NCBI GenBank assembly: GCA_905250025.1 | Contig: CAJNOJ010000018.1 | Location: 682,001 to 746,000 of the forward strand | Length of the DNA stretch: 64,000 nucleotides | Source of the DNA: Adineta ricciae | Taxonomy: Eukaryota; Rotifera; Eurotatoria; Adinetida; Adinetidae | Direction: 5' to 3' | Part shown: positions 5,049 to 39,171 of the stretch, in pieces | Position numbering within the stretch: the stretch's first letter is position 1 | Layout: each line of letters starts with the position of its first letter | Translations under genes and position numbers: made by a program | Notes under the pieces: model-generated | What the model saw: the letters and a program-made list of their open reading frames with translations, nothing else | What the model was told of the DNA's origin: nothing | Database searches by the model: none

Positions 5049-7307
5049 TTAGAAACCTAATGGATGTATGGGTACAGTTGATTCTTTATCGACGATTTCA
5101 CGAGCTAGTTCTGTCATTAATTTTGATCTAGCTACAAACGCTGGATTTTGGATAAGATTAAGATTGTAATTTATGCGATCATAGGCTTCTTCACACCAAA
5201 TGCGTACCAAATTTGATTCGTGTACTGCTGTTGGTACTTGACTGGTGAATGATTGTGTACAACGCGATAAACCAGCTGCCATTGCATAGATATCAATGAC
5301 AACATCACCGATACGATGAACAATAAATTGTTCATCCCGAATGCTTTTACCGTATTTGATCAGAATCTGTTCGATGGTAGCGCCGAATTGATCAATAGAT
5401 TTCGATAGAAGAGTACCAGATGAATGAAGTGACGAATGAATATGTTCGTTGATGTTTGGGCCTGCTGCCATACCAATACCTCGGCGTAAGCGTTTTGAAC
5501 CTTCACCAACAATGGCATTGAAATTAAAGCTTTTCACTGCTTGTTGCAGTTCCCGTAAGTGTGCGCCAACGTATTGTAAACCAGTGAATGCCACAAACAG
5601 ACGAAGGATGTCGTTAGCGCCTTCGAAAATTCGAAAGATGCGTAGATCGCGCATGACTCGTTCAAGTCCAGTGGCTTTCATAAAGCCCATTCCTCCATGA
5701 ATTTGAATGGCTTCATCCAAAACGAACCATGCGGATTCGGATGCGAAGATTTTTCCAACTGCTGCTTCACCTGCAATCAATCCAACTTTTGAAGAAGAAG
5801 CAAAATAAATAAAAGAACTTACATTGATATTCAGGTATGCCTCGGTCCATATTTTGCGCCAAAAGATACGCCAGACTTTCAGTTATGTATTGTCTCATTT
5901 CCATACGAACAAGTTTTTCTTGAACATTACCATATGTATCAATTGTACGACCAAATTGACGACGATTTTTAGCAAAATCCTACAAATTTCATTCTTGATC
6001 ATGATGTTGAAACGCCAAAAACTTACAATTGATTTTCGAATTGCCATTTTCATTGTGCCTGACAAGCCTGCAACCATACTGAATCGTCCATTGTTCAAAA
6101 TTTTTACTGCAACCTAAAAAAACATACAAGAGATCAATAGTCATTTTCTTTCTATCCGTCATCTATACTTTAAATCCGTTTCCAACACCCCCAAGTACAT
6201 TTTCCACAGGAACTTTACAATCTTCGAAGTAAACCTCAGTCGTATTTGAGCTGTTGATACCTAATTTTTTCTCCGGGGCGCCGTTGGTAAGACCGCCAAA
6301 TTTTCTTTCGACGATGAAAGCCGTCATTTTATTCTGAGTTTGACCAGTTTTATCATCAACAGTAGGTACTTGAGCAAATACCGTAAATACTTCAGCAATA
6401 CCACCATTTGATATCCAAATTTTCGAACCGTTTAAAATATAGTGTTTACCATCAGATGACAGTTGTGCTTTGGTTTTGATCGAAGCTACATCACTACCAG
6501 CTGAAACGGATTGAAAATATAGTCTCCTTTCAGAAAAATCAATTGATTTCTCTACCTGAAGGTTCTGTTAGAGCAAATGCTGCAATCTGCTCCCCAGACG
6601 CTAACTTTTCCAAATATTTTTTTTTCTGTGCTTCAGTACCAAATAAAACTATGCCTTTGAAACCAATCGATTGATGTGCTCCCATACACACCGATATGCT
6701 CAAATCATGAGCACTAGCTATTTCAAAAAGACGTGCTGCTTGAGTATTGGTTAAGCCAAGACCGCCGTATTCGACAGGAACCTGGATACCAAATGCACCC
6801 TGTTCTTTCAAACCATTCATAATATCGTCAGGAATCTTGAATCATTGAAAAAAGTAAATTTTCATGTTATCCAAAAGAAAAAAAATGATCATTTACTTTT
6901 CCTTGTTGGTCATTTTTAGCAGCATCATTTTTCTCTTCGAAAAATTTCCACAATGGATCAATAAACATCTTCACATTTTCCCGTTGTTCTTCATTGAGAA
7001 CGTTCGGATACGGAAACAACTCATTCGGATAAAATTCACCACGAAAAAGATTCATGACGAATGACGTAGATGTCTGCAACTCTTTCTTCGGCTTTGCAGA
7101 CGGCGAAAGACGTTCTTGCTTCGTCTTTTCATGATCTTTACTTTCCTTCGATTGCGACCTCTGTTCGTTGATCAACGATTCAGGTGTGACTGGCGATGCA
7201 GCCAATGGCGCTGCCGACGCTGCAGTTCGGTGTATTACGACTCGATTCAATAGCGATGCGCACGATGGTGCACGTCGATAAACAGTATTAACAAATGACG
7301 AACTCAT
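5049..7307 (-). CDS. ACADVL: Very long-chain acyl-CoA dehydrogenase
   Basis: Mitochondrial flavoenzyme of the first step of long-chain fatty-acid beta-oxidation. Six coding exons join in frame: 7307-6897, 6835-6556, 6500-6169, 6113-6027, 5979-5823 and 5770-5049, giving 662 aa (vertebrate VLCAD is about 655). The N-terminus is Arg/Ser/Ala-rich like a matrix-targeting peptide. Visible family motifs are [20 protein letters not shown] (FAD/substrate loop), [17 protein letters not shown] and RIFEGAND, whose Glu is the catalytic base position. The extra C-terminal ~180-aa domain separates VLCAD/ACAD9 from short-chain family members. ACAD9 is the main alternative. A 3' splice site (ttatttcag) sits 2 nt before the chosen ATG, so the upstream in-frame Met codons are intronic. 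Confidence 0.93.
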
Positions 7308-7309
7308 GA

Positions 7310-7516
7310 TCTGAAATAAGATTGTATTAAAAATAACTCGGAAACATTTCATCCAGATTATATAAAAATACAAAAAGTAAAAACGCGTCGACCGTCTTTA
7401 CGATAGTATGCGAAGAACGCGTAAAGAAAAATGCCTATACGTCATGTCTCACATACACACCCTCGGCAGAGAAAGAACGAAAATATCAAAGTCCATACTA
7501 TGTAAAAAATACTTAC
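7310..7516 (-). promoter_or_regulatory. Probable 5' UTR intron of ACADVL
   Basis: A strong donor (gtaagta) at 7516 and the acceptor ttatttcag ending near 7310 bracket about 205 nt just upstream of the ACADVL ATG. The donor lies under 40 nt after the WDR4 stop, so the ACADVL transcript would begin almost at the end of WDR4. Confidence 0.45.
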
Positions 7517-30992: not shown

Positions 30993-33258
30993 CTTAAGAC
31001 ACGTTTACAAATAGAGAATCGTTTTGTTTTCTTCGTATAAACACGACCATTGGTCAATATATTTAGAGTTTATATTAATCATTCTCTCCTTTCTCGCTCT
31101 CTTTTTCTCTCTCCTTCTCTTTCTATTGGAGATATCGATCGTTATTCGTCGTTCATTACCGTCAATTGCAAAAAAGGGTTCCTTTTTATTGAAAAAAGAA
31201 ATACAGCTGCTACTGATATTTGAAGTTCATCTTATAAATTTCATTCTATTTTATTGAGAAAAATAAGGCTGGGAAAAGATTATCAATCATTACCTCCTCC
31301 CGATCAATAAGCGCTCCTCTCGTTTTCTTTTGAGTACGTCATTGAACTAGTTGTTGCTGGTGTATATATGCCGACTTTGCTTCTATACACTTTTCACATT
31401 ATACATTTGATTTTCCTGATCATTGTCGTCGACAATAAGTGACTCTCTTTTGTGCTAGGGCGCTTTAAATTTAACATCGATAAGAAGAACTTAACGTTGA
31501 AAGTAAAAGAAAGCCATTCCACTCAACGGCGACAAGACTTTTTCTTAATCATGTCGAATTGAATGATTAAATCGGTGTGTGAAATCGAAACTCTCAAACT
31601 TTCCATGTATTTTGTTTGGGCTTGATCGAGAAGAAAAATCAATCATCATTCACATAATGATGTGTGAAATGTAATCATGAATATGCATTCATATTGCTGA
31701 ATTTTATATTGTTATTCAAGCTAAAACACCTTGCACTATCTAAACAAAAGCTCGTGTCTGAGAAAAAAAACAAAATGACGAGTATAATGTTTTAAAATAA
31801 CAATCACTAGTGACTGAATCTGATTCGCAAAGAGTTTTGTTTTCAAATCATCATCGACGTCGTCTCTTTGGCTAGTTATTGGCGTCAGTGAAAAACATCC
31901 GGAAATGGATATAAATACATGCCTTGTCGAAACATTCAGTGCAGGAAATCAATTAAAAAAAGCCAATAATAACAACGACATATTTCGTCAATTTGGCTTA
32001 AAAACATTCTTTTCTATGAAATAATTAGTGAGATCGATATAAATAGTATCTATCCTGCTGAGCACATGCCAGCTCACATTCTTCGTTTGTTGTTTGATCT
32101 TCATGTAATATGACATCATACATATGATTATGTCGTCGTCGTTCAAGATGACTCGTTTTACTTTTGCTGCCCTGTAATCAAATGAAATTGCTCGTGCGTA
32201 TGTATCTATTGAGTTGTCGATCAACAAGTCGCTTGCTGAGATATATCATTGCCGCGTATTCTTTTGATGGAACACACACACACATATATACTTAGTTGTT
32301 TCTTCTTCGAGTATTTTGACTCTTGTGATGAAGTTACAAGAAAACAGAATGAACCAGGGAGTCCATTGATGATCAATTGGCAAACGAAGAAAATGACACT
32401 TAACACAAATATGTGAAGATGATATCGAGAAGACGAAAAAAAGTATCTTACTGACGAATCTTAATTGAAATGTGGTCAGTTTGTTATACAGGATATCAGA
32501 TCAAATGAAATTATCAACCTTCGTAAGTGAGAGATGGCTGAAAACTCGTATACATGTCAAGTAAGCATGCAAAAAAAAAGAAGACGAACGCAAGTTATTA
32601 CCTTGTCATTAAGGTACTAATGAGTCTATAAAATAAGATTCTATCAATTCTCTATTATCGACAATAAAGAAAATGCGATGAACTTTTTTAACTAGTCCAG
32701 CTGTCGATGTTGTTAACTCAATTCGCGATTCAGACTTGTCTAGTCATTCTGTGTTGATGATCATCGAGTGTTTGTTTCTTCTGCGTACATTCATACGGGT
32801 TAGTCCAAGCACGAAATTACACATGTGTATATGTATGGCTGTATAGAAAGAGATACAAGCAAAAGGAAACAGGAGATGAAACCTGTAATAGCTTATATTA
32901 GACATTAGTATACGGACGAATGCATTTCTTTAGAAGATTGTTCGTTTGCATTCGAATCTGTAATCTCGATGCATGATTTGATAAAAATATACGGAGCAAA
33001 GGACATACATACATCTGGATATGTCTTATCAGTTGAAAGATTTCCGTTATATTGTGATATGAGCGAAAGAAATTATCAGAAGAAGACGAAGAATATAAAA
33101 GACACAAAGTAAACGATCGACACATTATTTTCACAATTGTACTGTTCATATCGAAGATATCTTTACTTCACCAATATTAGTATAATATTTGATTCCATAT
33201 CGTATTATAAGTATAGAAAAGAGTTTACAAGCTGAAGGACAGAGAGAATGGTCATAAT
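30993..33258. other. Non-coding region upstream of known AP-2 exons
   Basis: About 2.2 kb with no recognised gene. The missing AP-2 first exon and promoter probably lie here. Several short AT-rich repeats and pyrimidine tracts occur, but no motif that I can assign. Confidence 0.4.
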
Positions 33259-34230
33259 TTAAAAGTAATCACCTTGCCAAAACGTCGCATGACCACCCAA
33301 ATAAGCAGCTTTAATCTTTTCCAAAACATCTCTTGACAATCGGATATTTCGAATCATCGTATGATCATTTTTACTGACAGTAACAACACCTGCCCATTGA
33401 TCTAATTCATTCAAACCCATGTATTGTGGCACTGTATGTAAACGAATTGTTTTTAGCTGTGGATGTCGTCTATGTACTTCATTTGCTGCTAATTTCAAAA
33501 GTTTCTTTTCGGTTTCGACATTCGCCGCTCGCCATTCTGATACGTAGGTATTTTCTGCACTATCGGGATGAGTAATAACAATGTAACCCTGGTCGGATAA
33601 TAAATATGCAATGGCGTTTTCTTTTCGCCAATTCCAGCCAACCCAATGTTGAAACATGCTGACCGGTGATCGACTGAATTGGTATGTTCGAGGTTTATTC
33701 GAATGAATGTCGAGTAAAAGTTGACAATTAGATGAAAGTAGGTCATTTATCGGGTACCATTGATGGTGATTATCTCCAGAGGAGCTAAAATGATTCCACT
33801 GAACGCTAATGGGCGATGGCAGGGCGATTTGTTCCCAACCCAGAACTAAATAATGATTCGGCCGGCCTGTGCCTAATACAGATATATCGAATTCTTCACT
33901 TTGTTCCATTTTTGTTATAGCCATTCGTAATAATTCACGTGAATAACCATGTTTTCTATGCTCCTCTAATGTAGCAACATTTGATATGGCACCACATAAG
34001 TATTCTACATTGTCATCACGAGATCGAATATACAATCGTCGGATATGTACTGCACTAACGAGTTTGTCATTCACCCAAGCACCTAAAGTGTCACCGAATT
34101 GATAGCGAGGTGATTCTTTTTCCGAGAAATAACGCTCAAAATACTCTGGTTGAGTTTTAAACACTGCATACCACAAGTCAAGTGCTTGCTGTTGTTCATG
34201 TTTCTCAACGGGACGATAGATAACTGACAT
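33259..34230 (-). CDS. GNAT-family N-acetyltransferase, bacterial Eis-like
   Basis: An intronless 323-aa protein. The N-terminal ~150 residues form a GNAT fold with a core acetyl-CoA-binding stretch (SNVATLEEHRKHGYSREL), preceded by LVSAVHIRR and a Cys-Gly-Ala strand. The remainder looks like the second GNAT-like and C-terminal sterol-carrier-like parts of bacterial Eis-type acetyltransferases (COG4552-like). That assignment is inference from length and N-terminal pattern. Substrate unknown. No signal peptide is seen. An uninterrupted 972-nt frame among intron-rich neighbours, beside PEPC, suggests acquisition from bacteria. Confidence 0.75.
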   Translation of the reverse strand: MSVIYRPVEKHEQQQALDLWYAVFKTQPEYFERYFSEKESPRYQFGDTLGAWVNDKLVSAVHIRRLYIRSRDDNVEYLCGAISNVATLEEHRKHGYSRELLRMAITKMEQSEEFDISVLGTGRPNHYLVLGWEQIALPSPISVQWNHFSSSGDNHHQWYPINDLLSSNCQLLLDIHSNKPRTYQFSRSPVSMFQHWVGWNWRKENAIAYLLSDQGYIVITHPDSAENTYVSEWRAANVETEKKLLKLAANEVHRRHPQLKTIRLHTVPQYMGLNELDQWAGVVTVSKNDHTMIRNIRLSRDVLEKIKAAYLGGHATFWQGDYF

Positions 34231-35047
34231 GCTAATTTTCTAATTAAATGAATATTATCTACGGAAAATAAATTGCAAATGTTAAATGGAAATATAAGAC
34301 AGAAGAAAAGAGTTATTGAGTAAATCTATTAAATAATCTTTTAAGTAACAATAAGTTACCTACGCGTCAGTATAGATTTGTTCTTTACACGTGTATTAAT
34401 ATGATGACTAGATTCTCTTCATTAATGGAGTTTGATGATCATTGAAATATCAAAAAGGAGTTAGCTATATAAGGTCTACCGTTTGAATAGGTGTTTGTTC
34501 TTTATCAAAGAATAAAAAGAAAGTTATTGACGTATAAAAAAAGATACTTTTATTCTGGACTTGTCAGTGTACTTTGTACTTTCACTTCGAAATGATAGAC
34601 TCCTGTACGTTGCCCTTTCAATGAAATCTGTTATTTTGCATATATATATATATAAAGATAAATTGCTAAGAAAAATTTTAAAAAATGTAAGTATTGAATG
34701 CTTTTCGAGACGAGTTTTCTTTGACTGACTCTGCTCACACGGTAATCAGTGAGATATCTCTTTTTGTACTTGTCTAACGACAAATGCTTCTGTGGCCTTG
34801 TACTTTCGTTTTAAAAAAAGGTTTATCACTAACCCACCCCTTCTTAAGGTATCCTTATGACTCATGTTCGAATAGGGTGGTGTTATTCTTTTTCTCGCGA
34901 AATTAAGACGATGAAAATAGAAGAAAGTCAAACCCGAACATGTTTTCAATGAAAATCAATCTAATTTAGGCCACGCTTATATAAATAAAAAGATGTGTCA
35001 ATATTTGCATAATAAGATGTAAAATTGAAACGAAAATCTTATCCATT
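34231..35047. other. Intergenic region
   Basis: Between two same-strand genes. No supported coding frame. A short TA run lies at 34640-34653. Confidence 0.5.
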
Positions 35048-38000
35048 TTAGCCTGTATTTCTAAGACCTGCTGCGATGCCTGCCATAGTAGTCATCATTG
35101 CTCTGGAAATATCAGCCGGTATATCATCTGGTTGCTTATCACGATTGCGTTGCATTAATTCTGCTTGTAGACCATGTAATGGTTCAATGTAAGGATTGCG
35201 TAATGAAATGATATGTGCCAGTTGTGGTGCGCGTTCTAAGATCTCCTTTTGATCAGTGATACGGAGAACAAGTTCACGCATGTGATGAAGTCGCTGACGT
35301 AGAGATTCACTTAACTTTTGTATGGAAGAATTGGGTTCAAGAAGTTGTTGTTCATAGTAGGCAGTGATGTCTGCATCAGCTTTTGCAAGAACCATCTCAA
35401 GCATATTCATATACATGCGAAAAAATGGCCATGATTTACTCATTTCACGTAATCGGTGAATACCGTCTGGATTAGTTCGGAGATATTCATCGAAAGCATC
35501 ATCGGTACCTAACCAAGCAGGTAGCATAAGTCGAATTTGTCTATAAAAGCTCGTTGTAAATGAGATGCAATACCATGTCTTTAAGTATGAGTACTTACGT
35601 CCAAGCAAATATCCACGGAATTGCTCGTAATGTTTCAACACCACCGTCTTGCCTTCGTTTCGCAGGTCGAGAACCGAGTGGTAGTTGTGAAAGTGCATTC
35701 AACGGAGTAATTCTTCGAAAGTAAGGTACGAAGTCGGGATTTTCACGAACAATTGAATTGTAAGTTTGATGTGCACGATTTGCTAGTTGATTCATTTCTC
35801 CTCGCCATGTTTCTTTTAGTTTTGGCATTGGTAGTAGAGTTGCTTCTAAGACAGAACTTGCGTAGATTTTCATGGATGAGACAGCTAAACCAGGCAGACC
35901 AAACTTGAATCGAATCATCTCACCTTGTTCAGTCACTCGAATGCTATTATTGACAGATCCAGGTGGTTGCGATAGGATAGCTAAAAGATCAGTTAAGATT
36001 CTTTATAATTCACTTAATTTCAGTTTTGACTGTATACCAGAACGTGCCGGACCACCACCTCTTGCTACAGTACCACCACGACCATGAAATAATGTTAATT
36101 CAACACCGTGTTTTTGACAAACTTCTAATAAACGTTCTTGAGCTCGATATTGTGCCCATGCAGCTGCTAATTGACTAAAGTAGAGATAGAGAGTTTTATT
36201 TCACAAACTAATTCATTTTAATCATTACCCGGCATCTTTTGCCGAATCGGAGTATCCAATCATAACTTCTTGTTTATCATTAATCAATTCTCGATACCCT
36301 TCAATTGATAGTAATCGATCAATGACATCACCCGAACGATCCAAATCATCCAATGTTTCAAACAATGGAGCAATCTTAAAAAGAAAATTTTAATACGAAA
36401 CTAAGAATGATGTCTGAACGCTTTCTAACCGGTAGGGTCTTTCCATTGGCCAATTCTTTCATGAATAATGCCACTATTAACACATCCGATGGTTGTCCAG
36501 CCATTGATATGATATAAGTTCCTAATGCTTCCTCACTATCCTTTCGTCCGATGATTTCAAACGTATCCAAAACTTCCTGCGTGTCTGTTGTCCATTTCTG
36601 TCTATGGGAAATTAGTGGTCGTTTAGAAGCCAATTCTTGAAGTAAAAACTTTTGTCTCTTCTCTTCATTCCATTGCGCATATTTTTCTTCGTTTGGAAGG
36701 ATATGTGATAAAATTTCATTTAGTGCATCTGTATGACGTGTCGATTCTTGTCGCAAGTCAAGTTTTGTTAATGTAACACCAAAACAGGCTAAACGACGTA
36801 ATGTGTCCAGTAGATTACCATTCGCAATCAGATCGAGTTTATTTTCGAGTAACGATCGATAGCAGACTTCAAGAGGCTTTTGTAATTGTTCTTTCGAATG
36901 AATTAATTTCGTTTGTGGAGGAATTTCAAAAAATTGATTATCTAATTGAGCTTTCAACCAATCACGCGTTGTTCGAATTTGATGAATCAACTGTTTCAGA
37001 AGTACTCGATAAGGTTCTTTGGCATCTTTATCATCAATCAAATCCAGTAGTTCATCTCTATAAATCAAAACATGAAGTGTACTCGCTCTTTTGAAGACGT
37101 ATCACTTACGATGCTTTGGTCATGGATAGCTCATCTTTGAGCTTTTCCAAATCGAAAAGATAAAGTTCAGCTGCTTGCCAACGACCAAGTAATAAAACTT
37201 CTCTGGTCACTGCAGCAGTGACATTTGGATTACCCTAGGCGAGAAAATCTCGATGATCAACACTGTTCATAGTAGTACGTATCTGAAACTTACATCGCGA
37301 TCACCACCCATCCATGATGCAAATCGAATGGGTGATGCATGTAGAGGTAAACGTTTTCCGGTAATTTCAAGAAGTAGTTGGTCGAGATCTCGTGAGAATA
37401 TTGCCAAAGCTTCCCAAAGTGAAGTTTCCACAACAGCAAAACCCCATTTTGCTTCTTTAAATAGAGAAAAGAGGAAAAAAGTCATTCTCTTCCAACAGGA
37501 TAATTCAACTTACCATCAACAGGTGATGGCTTTTCATGTCGAAATTCATTTGTATGCCATGATTGACAAATTAATTCTTCCAAACGTTCTCGTGTTCGTT
37601 GAACTCTTCTCGAAATGAATTTCTTATCACTTTCCGTGTTGAACATTTCGAGTAATCCTAAGCATTCTTCGATTAAATCATATTTTTTAATTAATGTTCG
37701 TCGTATCGTTTCTGTCGGGTGTGCAGTTAGGACTAATTCGATTCTCATTTTCGAAAGTGTTTCAAATAATAAATCTTTAGCATTGTTCTTTTCGGTTTCT
37801 ACACGTTTGAACACATGACGAAGTGATACACCACCAGCACCGCTCCGATTATAATCATCGACTCCTCCTTTGAAATGAGCTCGATGATGTTGTTCGGCGA
37901 TATTGGCTAATTGAAGAAATTGATTAAATGCACGTGCAACAGGTAGTAAATATTTCTCAGGAAGATTGCGTAAGTAATCGTGTAGTTCTGTTCCATCATC

Positions 38001-38319
38001 TCGACGTTTGGCATATTCGCGTATCGTTTCGATTTTTTCTAGGAAATCTTTACCAAGATCGCGAGTAATTGTGCGTCCGAGACTATCGCCAAGAAGTCGA
38101 ATGTTAATACGAAGTGATTCGTCAACTAGATTATTTTCATTCGTTGAGGTCGATGCACTCTTCGATGAAGGGTAATTGTTCTCATGTCCAACTATGATAC
38201 AAAATGCAATTATCAAATCAATTGAGAAGAACATCCCATAACTTACTACTCAAAAATCTACATTGATTCGTTAGACTTGTAGATTGCAATAGAAAACATC
38301 GAGATGTACGAACGATCAT
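35048..38319 (-). CDS. ppc: Phosphoenolpyruvate carboxylase
   Basis: Carboxylates phosphoenolpyruvate with bicarbonate to oxaloacetate, an anaplerotic step of plants, bacteria and some protists. Nine exons: 38319-38247, 38191-37514, 37454-37294, 37234-37110, 37057-36430, 36374-36229, 36174-36038, 35980-35599 and 35540-35048. They sum to 940 aa in frame, full family length. Visible are LVLTAHPTE with the catalytic His near residue 182, [28 protein letters not shown], the glycine loop [40 protein letters not shown] and the invariant C-terminus RNTG. The glycine loop has Ala where Gly is usual. The first exon encodes a short N-terminus ([12 protein letters not shown]…) with three Arg and no acidic residue, resembling a mitochondrial presequence. 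Nothing is frameshifted. Animals generally lack the enzyme, so horizontal transfer followed by intron gain is likely. Confidence 0.95.
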
Positions 38320-39171
38320 TTTCATTCTTTCATAGTCAGTCTGTGTGTTACTTAGTATTCCGTTTTATCATATACATTTTTATCAAACACTTGTAAAAAG
38401 TCAATTCTATTTATCGCTTACACGAAAACCAATAGTTTTCTCTCTCTGCTAATCAATATTCATACTTGCATGTTTTGCTAAAGAGGTCACTCTTCTCTTA
38501 TTCTAACTGAAGTTGATTCAAAGACAGTTTCTATTCCTTTTTCAAAAAATGGACAAGTTTTGTTTATAAATGAATAACTTATTTCGTAGTTATTTTGGCT
38601 CGTCTCAATTTTGTGTCCATTAGAAATGAGGAGGAATAAGTACGAAACCGAAGTTCAACAGGTATAGTTTTATGCTGCCGTAATAATATGAGATTAACAA
38701 GAATTATTCTGCCAGCCGATACAATAGCAATTCCTTGAAAATAGAGAATGATCAACAAGAGGAAGCGAGACAGAAAAAGCAATAATCGCGTAATTCGAGG
38801 TCATTAATTCATAAAGAAAGAAACAACAGACCTTCGCAAAACATTATCTTACACCGGTTGAAAATGCATCCATGGAAGATAATTATGATATGCGAAACAC
38901 ATAGTTATGTTCATTTCGATTATTAGATCAATAGAAGAATAAACTTAACCTCTATGGATATAACAAGATTAATTGTTAGTGTAAAAATCTCTTTCGAATC
39001 ATTTGGATTTAATTACGAATAAAAAACAAATTGTATGAAATAAAATACAAGGCATGAGCACGCGATTTGCTGAGTAAGAGGTGAGACACTGTTTCAAAAT
39101 GCATATCAAAATGACAAAAGAATACCAGAGAGAAAGGAAGTGAGAAATGAATCGAAGTGAAATCATTTGTT
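38320..39171. other. Intergenic region, PEPC promoter / protocadherin 3' flank
   Basis: AT-rich with no supported coding frame. Confidence 0.5.

Follow-up and report, generated by a model that had tools for sequence, protein, structure and literature searches.

An intron-bearing phosphoenolpyruvate carboxylase gene of bacterial type in the bdelloid rotifer Adineta ricciae and its candidate mitochondrial presequence

The bdelloid rotifer Adineta ricciae carries a phosphoenolpyruvate carboxylase (PEPC) gene that, judged by its sequence, is genuine and intact, and its relationships mark it as a horizontally acquired gene of Halomonadaceae type. It lies on the minus strand (38325-35048) of the window, by which we mean the whole analysed stretch of 64,000 nucleotides (positions 682001-746000 of contig C18, in a host assembly of 130.46 Mb and 1033 contigs). 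We propose that an ancestral bdelloid took up a gammaproteobacterial ppc of the Halomonadaceae type, that this gene would then have gained eight host-type introns as well as an extra first exon, and that it was presumably retained under purifying selection as a working enzyme, for which the predicted reaction is PEP + HCO3- -> oxaloacetate + Pi. Taken as a whole, this account (acquisition from a Halomonadaceae-type source, domestication, and a working PEPC with a mitochondrial presequence) appears to us slightly more probable than not. That a bacterial PEPC has been re-addressed to animal mitochondria by a newly gained presequence exon, which would bring about biotin-free CO2 fixation into oxaloacetate, is put forward more tentatively, at a little under an even chance.

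Gene model, enzyme family and bacterial relatives

The gene model comprises nine exons, which join into an open frame of 942 residues, and eight introns (55, 59, 59, 52, 55, 54, 57 and 58 nt), all of them GT-AG. The predicted start is the ATG at 38325, two codons ahead of a second Met at 38319, with an in-frame stop further upstream (38367); the preliminary description had put the upper end of the gene at 38319, which is a valid in-frame Met, but only the second one. Exon 1 (38247-38325, minus strand like all the following) supplies the start codon and a 26-residue candidate mitochondrial presequence with an RFL|S end, and is followed, after a GTAAGT donor, by intron 1 (38192-38246; 55 nt, GTAAGT...ATAG, phase 1), which is similar in length to the other seven. 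Exon 2 (37514-38191) encodes a linker that runs from residue 27 to about residue 44, followed by the beginning of the homology to bacterial PEPC (ESLR..., residue 51 on) and the TAHPTE motif (182). The GGDRDGNP motif begins in exon 3 (37294-37454) and continues into exon 4 (37110-37234), which encodes the rest of it. The RQES motif (residue 450) is located in exon 5 (36430-37057), SDSAKDAG (599) in exon 6 (36229-36374), FHGRGG (635) and RGGGP (644) in exon 7 (36038-36174), and SRPAKR (755) and LRAIPW (769) in exon 8 (35599-35980); exon 9 (35048-35540; PF00311 755-919) encodes the C-terminal part with its RNTG end and the stop codon.

The Pfam profile PF00311 matches residues 53-942 of the spliced protein over its entire length (1-919 of 919, 1020 bits), and the score with the NCBIfam model NF000584 is 1016 bits, where the curated cut-off is 815. 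Motifs and alignment identify the catalytic residues as H184 (TAHPTE), R450 (RQES), K603 (SDSAKDAG), H636, R638, R644, R756 and R770; we take their counterparts in the E. coli enzyme to be H138, R396, K546, H579, R581, R587, R699 and R713, respectively. The inhibitor-site residues K832, R893 and N940 are present too, and the C-terminus reads RNTG (E. coli: presumably K773, R832 and N881, and a C-terminal NTG). In an alignment with 120 gammaproteobacterial rows, i.e. 120 of our 138 bacterial proteins after omission of the 18 most distant (the entries L011 and L112 represent one gene), the rotifer PEPC keeps 172 of the 176 columns that are invariant in these rows, and it is gapped at 5 columns where more than 90% of the bacterial rows carry a residue. 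With 942 residues and a match to the full PF00311 profile, the earlier reading of the locus as a full-length PEPC with catalytic motifs, eight short introns and an unbroken frame is borne out.

A peptide-pattern search of genome contigs matched 316 stretches, 233 of which encoded relatives. The best 80 of these 233 are 60-63% identical to the rotifer protein (over about 890 residues for Halomonadaceae) and come from Halomonas, Vreelandella, Billgrantia, Modicisalibacter, Salinicola, Halovibrio, Cobetia and one unnamed gammaproteobacterium. Matches were found in 166 of the 274 genomes sampled by class and in 130 of the 194 sampled by order; in both samples only a few Halomonadaceae-like genomes reach 61-65% identity, all other matches listed being at 54% or below. 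Among plasmid records, 124 had a match, none of them at 60% identity or more, and the 11 pattern matches on viral contigs included no relative. A phylogeny against bacterial PEPCs had been suggested in the preliminary description; in our trees, where every row apart from the animal protein is bacterial, the Halomonadaceae-type grouping was recovered. In the 25-row tree (24 of the 138 bacterial proteins plus the animal protein) the animal row falls with nine Halomonadaceae-type rows, with support of 100/100, against 15 others, on a long branch (0.8) and with a letter composition unlike that of the rest of the alignment; a quick tree of 58 rows (57 of the 138 bacterial proteins) has the same grouping. 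The rotifer protein may branch either inside Halomonadaceae or beside it, and a eukaryotic go-between may have taken part in the transfer.

The rotifer PEPC resembles the ppc product of Halomonadaceae (Halomonas, Vreelandella, Cobetia, Salinicola) in its motifs and C-terminal RNTG, but differs from it in the eight introns, the approximately 44 extra N-terminal residues and the host-like GC3. Plant-type PEPCs have the enzyme family and the active-site motifs in common with it. Among the PDB chains, 1fiy, which we take to be the E. coli PEPC, scores 895 bits, and the other 11 chains (5fdn, 8oj9 and others), presumably plant PEPCs, score only 610-642 bits. A plant or algal donor was considered and rejected on this comparison, which is limited to PDB chains.

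The first exon and the location of the enzyme

Residues 1-44 are extra with respect to bacterial PEPC: exon 1 contributes 26 of them and exon 2 the rest, a linker rich in Ser, Thr and Asn. The alignment with bacterial proteins begins at residue 51 in 68 of the 138 rows; in 33 of the 138 it already starts upstream of residue 45. These 33 rows are stop-to-stop frames with 0-5 identities in the upstream part, apart from one row (L122) with 11 of 42, and this upstream identity is chance-like. In the Halomonas-type frame (MSHDLHESLR), with start codons that are assumed and not annotated, the first Met corresponds to rotifer residue 45, and the common alignment start at 51 lies six residues later. 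The 26-residue peptide of exon 1 contains 3 Arg and 1 Lys (net charge +4) and no Asp or Glu, the first acidic residue of the protein being residue 30, so the Arg-containing, acid-free, separate first exon noticed earlier is indeed there. Its C-terminal end is R-F-L|S, the form commonly known as the R-3 cleavage motif of presequences, and intron 1 starts one base past the Ser26 codon.

Because of this acid-free, Arg-bearing composition and the cleavage-like motif, we lean towards import of PEPC, with exon 1 acting as a cleavable mitochondrial presequence. As a presequence, it would let the enzyme make oxaloacetate in the matrix, as an anaplerotic step beside pyruvate carboxylase. How common such N-termini are was estimated with a charge rule (no acidic residue, at least 3 Arg and at least 4 basic residues; coding stretches and nested ATGs included), which picks out 30 of the 759 other stretches of 26 codons in the window that begin with ATG (4%; the raw count is 31 of 760, one being PEPC's own nested ATG) and 16 of 256 N-termini of bacterial long ORFs. 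The hydrophobic moment of exon 1 is reached by 340, 843 and 984 of 3000 shuffles for segments of 11, 14 and 18 residues. For the window ORF at 6867-7397, which we take as the N-terminus of an acyl-CoA dehydrogenase (ACAD) although Pfam gives no match for it, the respective counts are 572, 295 and 140 of 3000; its 18-residue moment is 0.36, versus 0.27 for exon 1. The mitochondrial location proposed in the preliminary description is plausible: composition and RFL|S fit a presequence, but the amphipathicity is no better than that of shuffles, and the 30 other stretches match the charge rule as well.

The weak amphipathicity also speaks for a cytosolic location of the domesticated bacterial PEPC, in which case exon 1 would be a recruited 5' exon that provides a start codon and otherwise just a disordered tail. 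This alternative is a real contender, though we think it somewhat improbable. A start had to be recruited anyway, as exon 2 has no early Met; PEP is produced mainly in the cytosol, and bacterial PEPCs are cytosolic, while those of plants are for the most part found in the cytosol or in plastids. Without import, the same enzyme would act in the cytosol between PEP and oxaloacetate/malate. Mere recruitment of a start, however, need not yield an acid-free peptide with three Arg and a cleavage-like RFL|S: when the motif R-x-[FLY]-[SATGC] near the end is added to the charge rule, 1 of the 759 other N-termini remains, a weak figure, since both motif and position were picked after seeing the sequence. 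We also considered that exon 1 could be a copied presequence exon of another gene; a limited DNA search of the rotifer's own genome for a second copy of the exon-1 region returned only the locus itself.

Both the mitochondrial and the cytosolic reading presuppose that exon 1 is used. No Met occurs after residue 3 until residue 175, and a full-length enzyme can therefore be made only with exon 1 or by initiation at 38234 without splicing. There are six spliced 5' models with introns of up to 400 nt, and only the exon-1 model combines a GTAAGT donor with the usual intron size; we infer that exon 1 is spliced onto exon 2. If intron 1 were unspliced or optional, translation from the ATG at 38234, which is in frame with exon 2 with no stop between, would give a hydrophobic N-terminus (a membrane or secretory signal), or two protein forms would be made. 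We regard this as very unlikely, given that the intron has canonical GTAAGT/ATAG ends, 55 nt and 29% GC, as in the other seven introns, and that secreting a PEP-using enzyme makes little sense.

Genomic setting

The GC content is 35.5% and the allele divergence found here is about 5%, similar to the values in print for A. ricciae (GC 35.6%, median allele divergence 4.55%, according to PMC5916493); the sizes of the introns agree with printed A. ricciae values as well. Ten neighbouring ORFs were scanned for families, and two had none; the neighbours include cadherin repeats (40.0-42.7 kb), an aquaporin, a C2-domain protein and, at 5 kb, an ACAD9/VLCAD-type dehydrogenase, which among PDB entries is matched best by mitochondrial very-long-chain acyl-CoA dehydrogenases. 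The GC3 of PEPC is 0.25, compared with 0.28-0.31 in five neighbouring ORFs or exons. The partners of the C18 region are contigs C24 and C35, which share 94.3-95.4% identity between themselves but only about 70% with the window; these levels resemble those of alleles and ohnologs in a degenerate tetraploid bdelloid. Both partners are collinear with the window at 25.0-32.26 kb and at 39.09-42.7 kb, i.e. on either side of PEPC. For the 6.8-kb interval from 32260 to 39085, which holds PEPC and an ORF of a GNAT-type acetyltransferase, no counterpart was found in C24 or C35 by blastn or tblastn, the partners having 3.06 and 2.59 kb in its place, and the ohnolog stretches (L099-L102) contained no relic of PEPC or GNAT (lowest tblastn E 0.91).

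The plainly bacterial kinship of PEPC is what bacterial contamination or a decayed insertion would give, but both readings, like that of a pseudogene, have practically no probability and are ruled out, because the gene has eight spliceosomal-type introns, an unbroken frame and host-like GC3, with animal genes on both sides and collinear ohnologs that lack it. The earlier view of this PEPC as foreign to animals yet domesticated stands on its bacterial kinship, introns, intact frame and host flanks.

The GNAT and PEPC pair may be a gain confined to the C18 copy, or the other lineage may have lost it. A near-identical allele of the C18 region (window 20000-42800) was not found, though C24 and C35 are both present; the C18 segment may be collapsed in the assembly, or its homologue may be missing or lost. 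Between 32200 and 39200, a search for repeats that would point to a mobile element gave nothing beyond pairs of 18-31 nt at 71-94% identity. The GNAT-type ORF (33262-34230, minus strand) is intronless and encodes 323 aa, with a match to PF13527 (Acetyltransf_9) of 67.9 bits; related DNA at 66-68% occurs on C336 (two stretches) and C218, and the ORF was possibly acquired jointly with PEPC, or independently. Within the equivalent of the GNAT and PEPC interval, the two partner alleles contain stretches that are unalignable with each other, of 981 bases on C24 (L099:5033-6014) and 493 bases on C35 (L100:4412-4905).

Elsewhere in the genome there is a second PEPC-like protein (922 aa), encoded without introns on C243 (L009:3673-6438) and C301 (L010:3542-6307). 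The two copies are allele-like, with 104 of 2766 bases different and a pN/pS of about 0.13 (simple count). The protein matches PF00311 with only about 111 bits, and SDSAKDAG is changed to SDTVRRNG and FHGRGG to FSGGGA, so that it looks like a protein that may be conserved for a role other than PEP carboxylation. The pair is very divergent from the PEPC described here, and the possibility that these PF00311 loci are its alleles was ruled out.

Known PEPCs and metabolic context

We know of no earlier case of PEPC in an animal mitochondrial matrix; in the diatom Phaeodactylum tricornutum, a mitochondrial PEPC2 was reportedly described by Yu et al. in 2022. A diatom PEPC in mitochondria, as proposed here for the rotifer copy, is described in PMC8670125; in the parts of that article considered here, P. 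tricornutum PEPC2 is an algal enzyme discussed in connection with carbon concentration. For animals, the relevant portions of Peng et al. 2012 (PMC3521007) list just two doubtful hits. Transcripts of a eubacterial PEP synthase and PEPC from A. ricciae, with the suggestion of CO2 fixation, were reported by Boschetti et al. 2012 (PMC3499245), so that a eubacterial PEPC expressed in a bdelloid, as we propose, has a published parallel. That PEPC transcript possibly belongs to the present gene or its orthologue, or could stem from the divergent pair on C243 and C301. From these printed transcripts, which are not necessarily of the same gene, we infer that the present PEPC is expressed. The gene structure is given here; the sections of PMC3499245 that were examined give neither a structure nor a location for PEPC.

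As far as these sources go, the bdelloid PEPC and its expression are largely known and already in print, and the novelty claimed in the preliminary description was overstated with respect to both the A. ricciae transcripts and the mitochondrial PEPC of a diatom. In the part of the open-access literature that was covered, we found no statement on the location of any bdelloid PEPC. If located in the matrix, the rotifer enzyme would show clearly how a gene gained by horizontal transfer can be redirected to an organelle through one added exon.

Oxaloacetate is replenished in animals mainly by pyruvate carboxylase. The genome of A. ricciae has PYC_OADA (pyruvate-carboxylase-type) domains at two loci and PEPCK-GTP matches on six contigs (C4, C10, C99, C190, C405 and C463), and because these genes are present in the same genome, PEPC would add a route rather than replace one. 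Thus, of the anaplerotic route beside pyruvate carboxylase suggested previously, the addition to the existing gene set holds, but the matrix location is plausible only. A PEPC in the matrix would work against any PEPCK located there, and the two could form a PEP/oxaloacetate cycle if such a mitochondrial PEPCK exists. With a retained PEPC, bicarbonate would enter the central metabolism of an animal in the manner of plants and bacteria. A single PEP-utiliser domain was found on C8 (611400-611612), inside an open frame of 935 aa; this locus is a possible candidate for a PEP synthase partner of PEPC.
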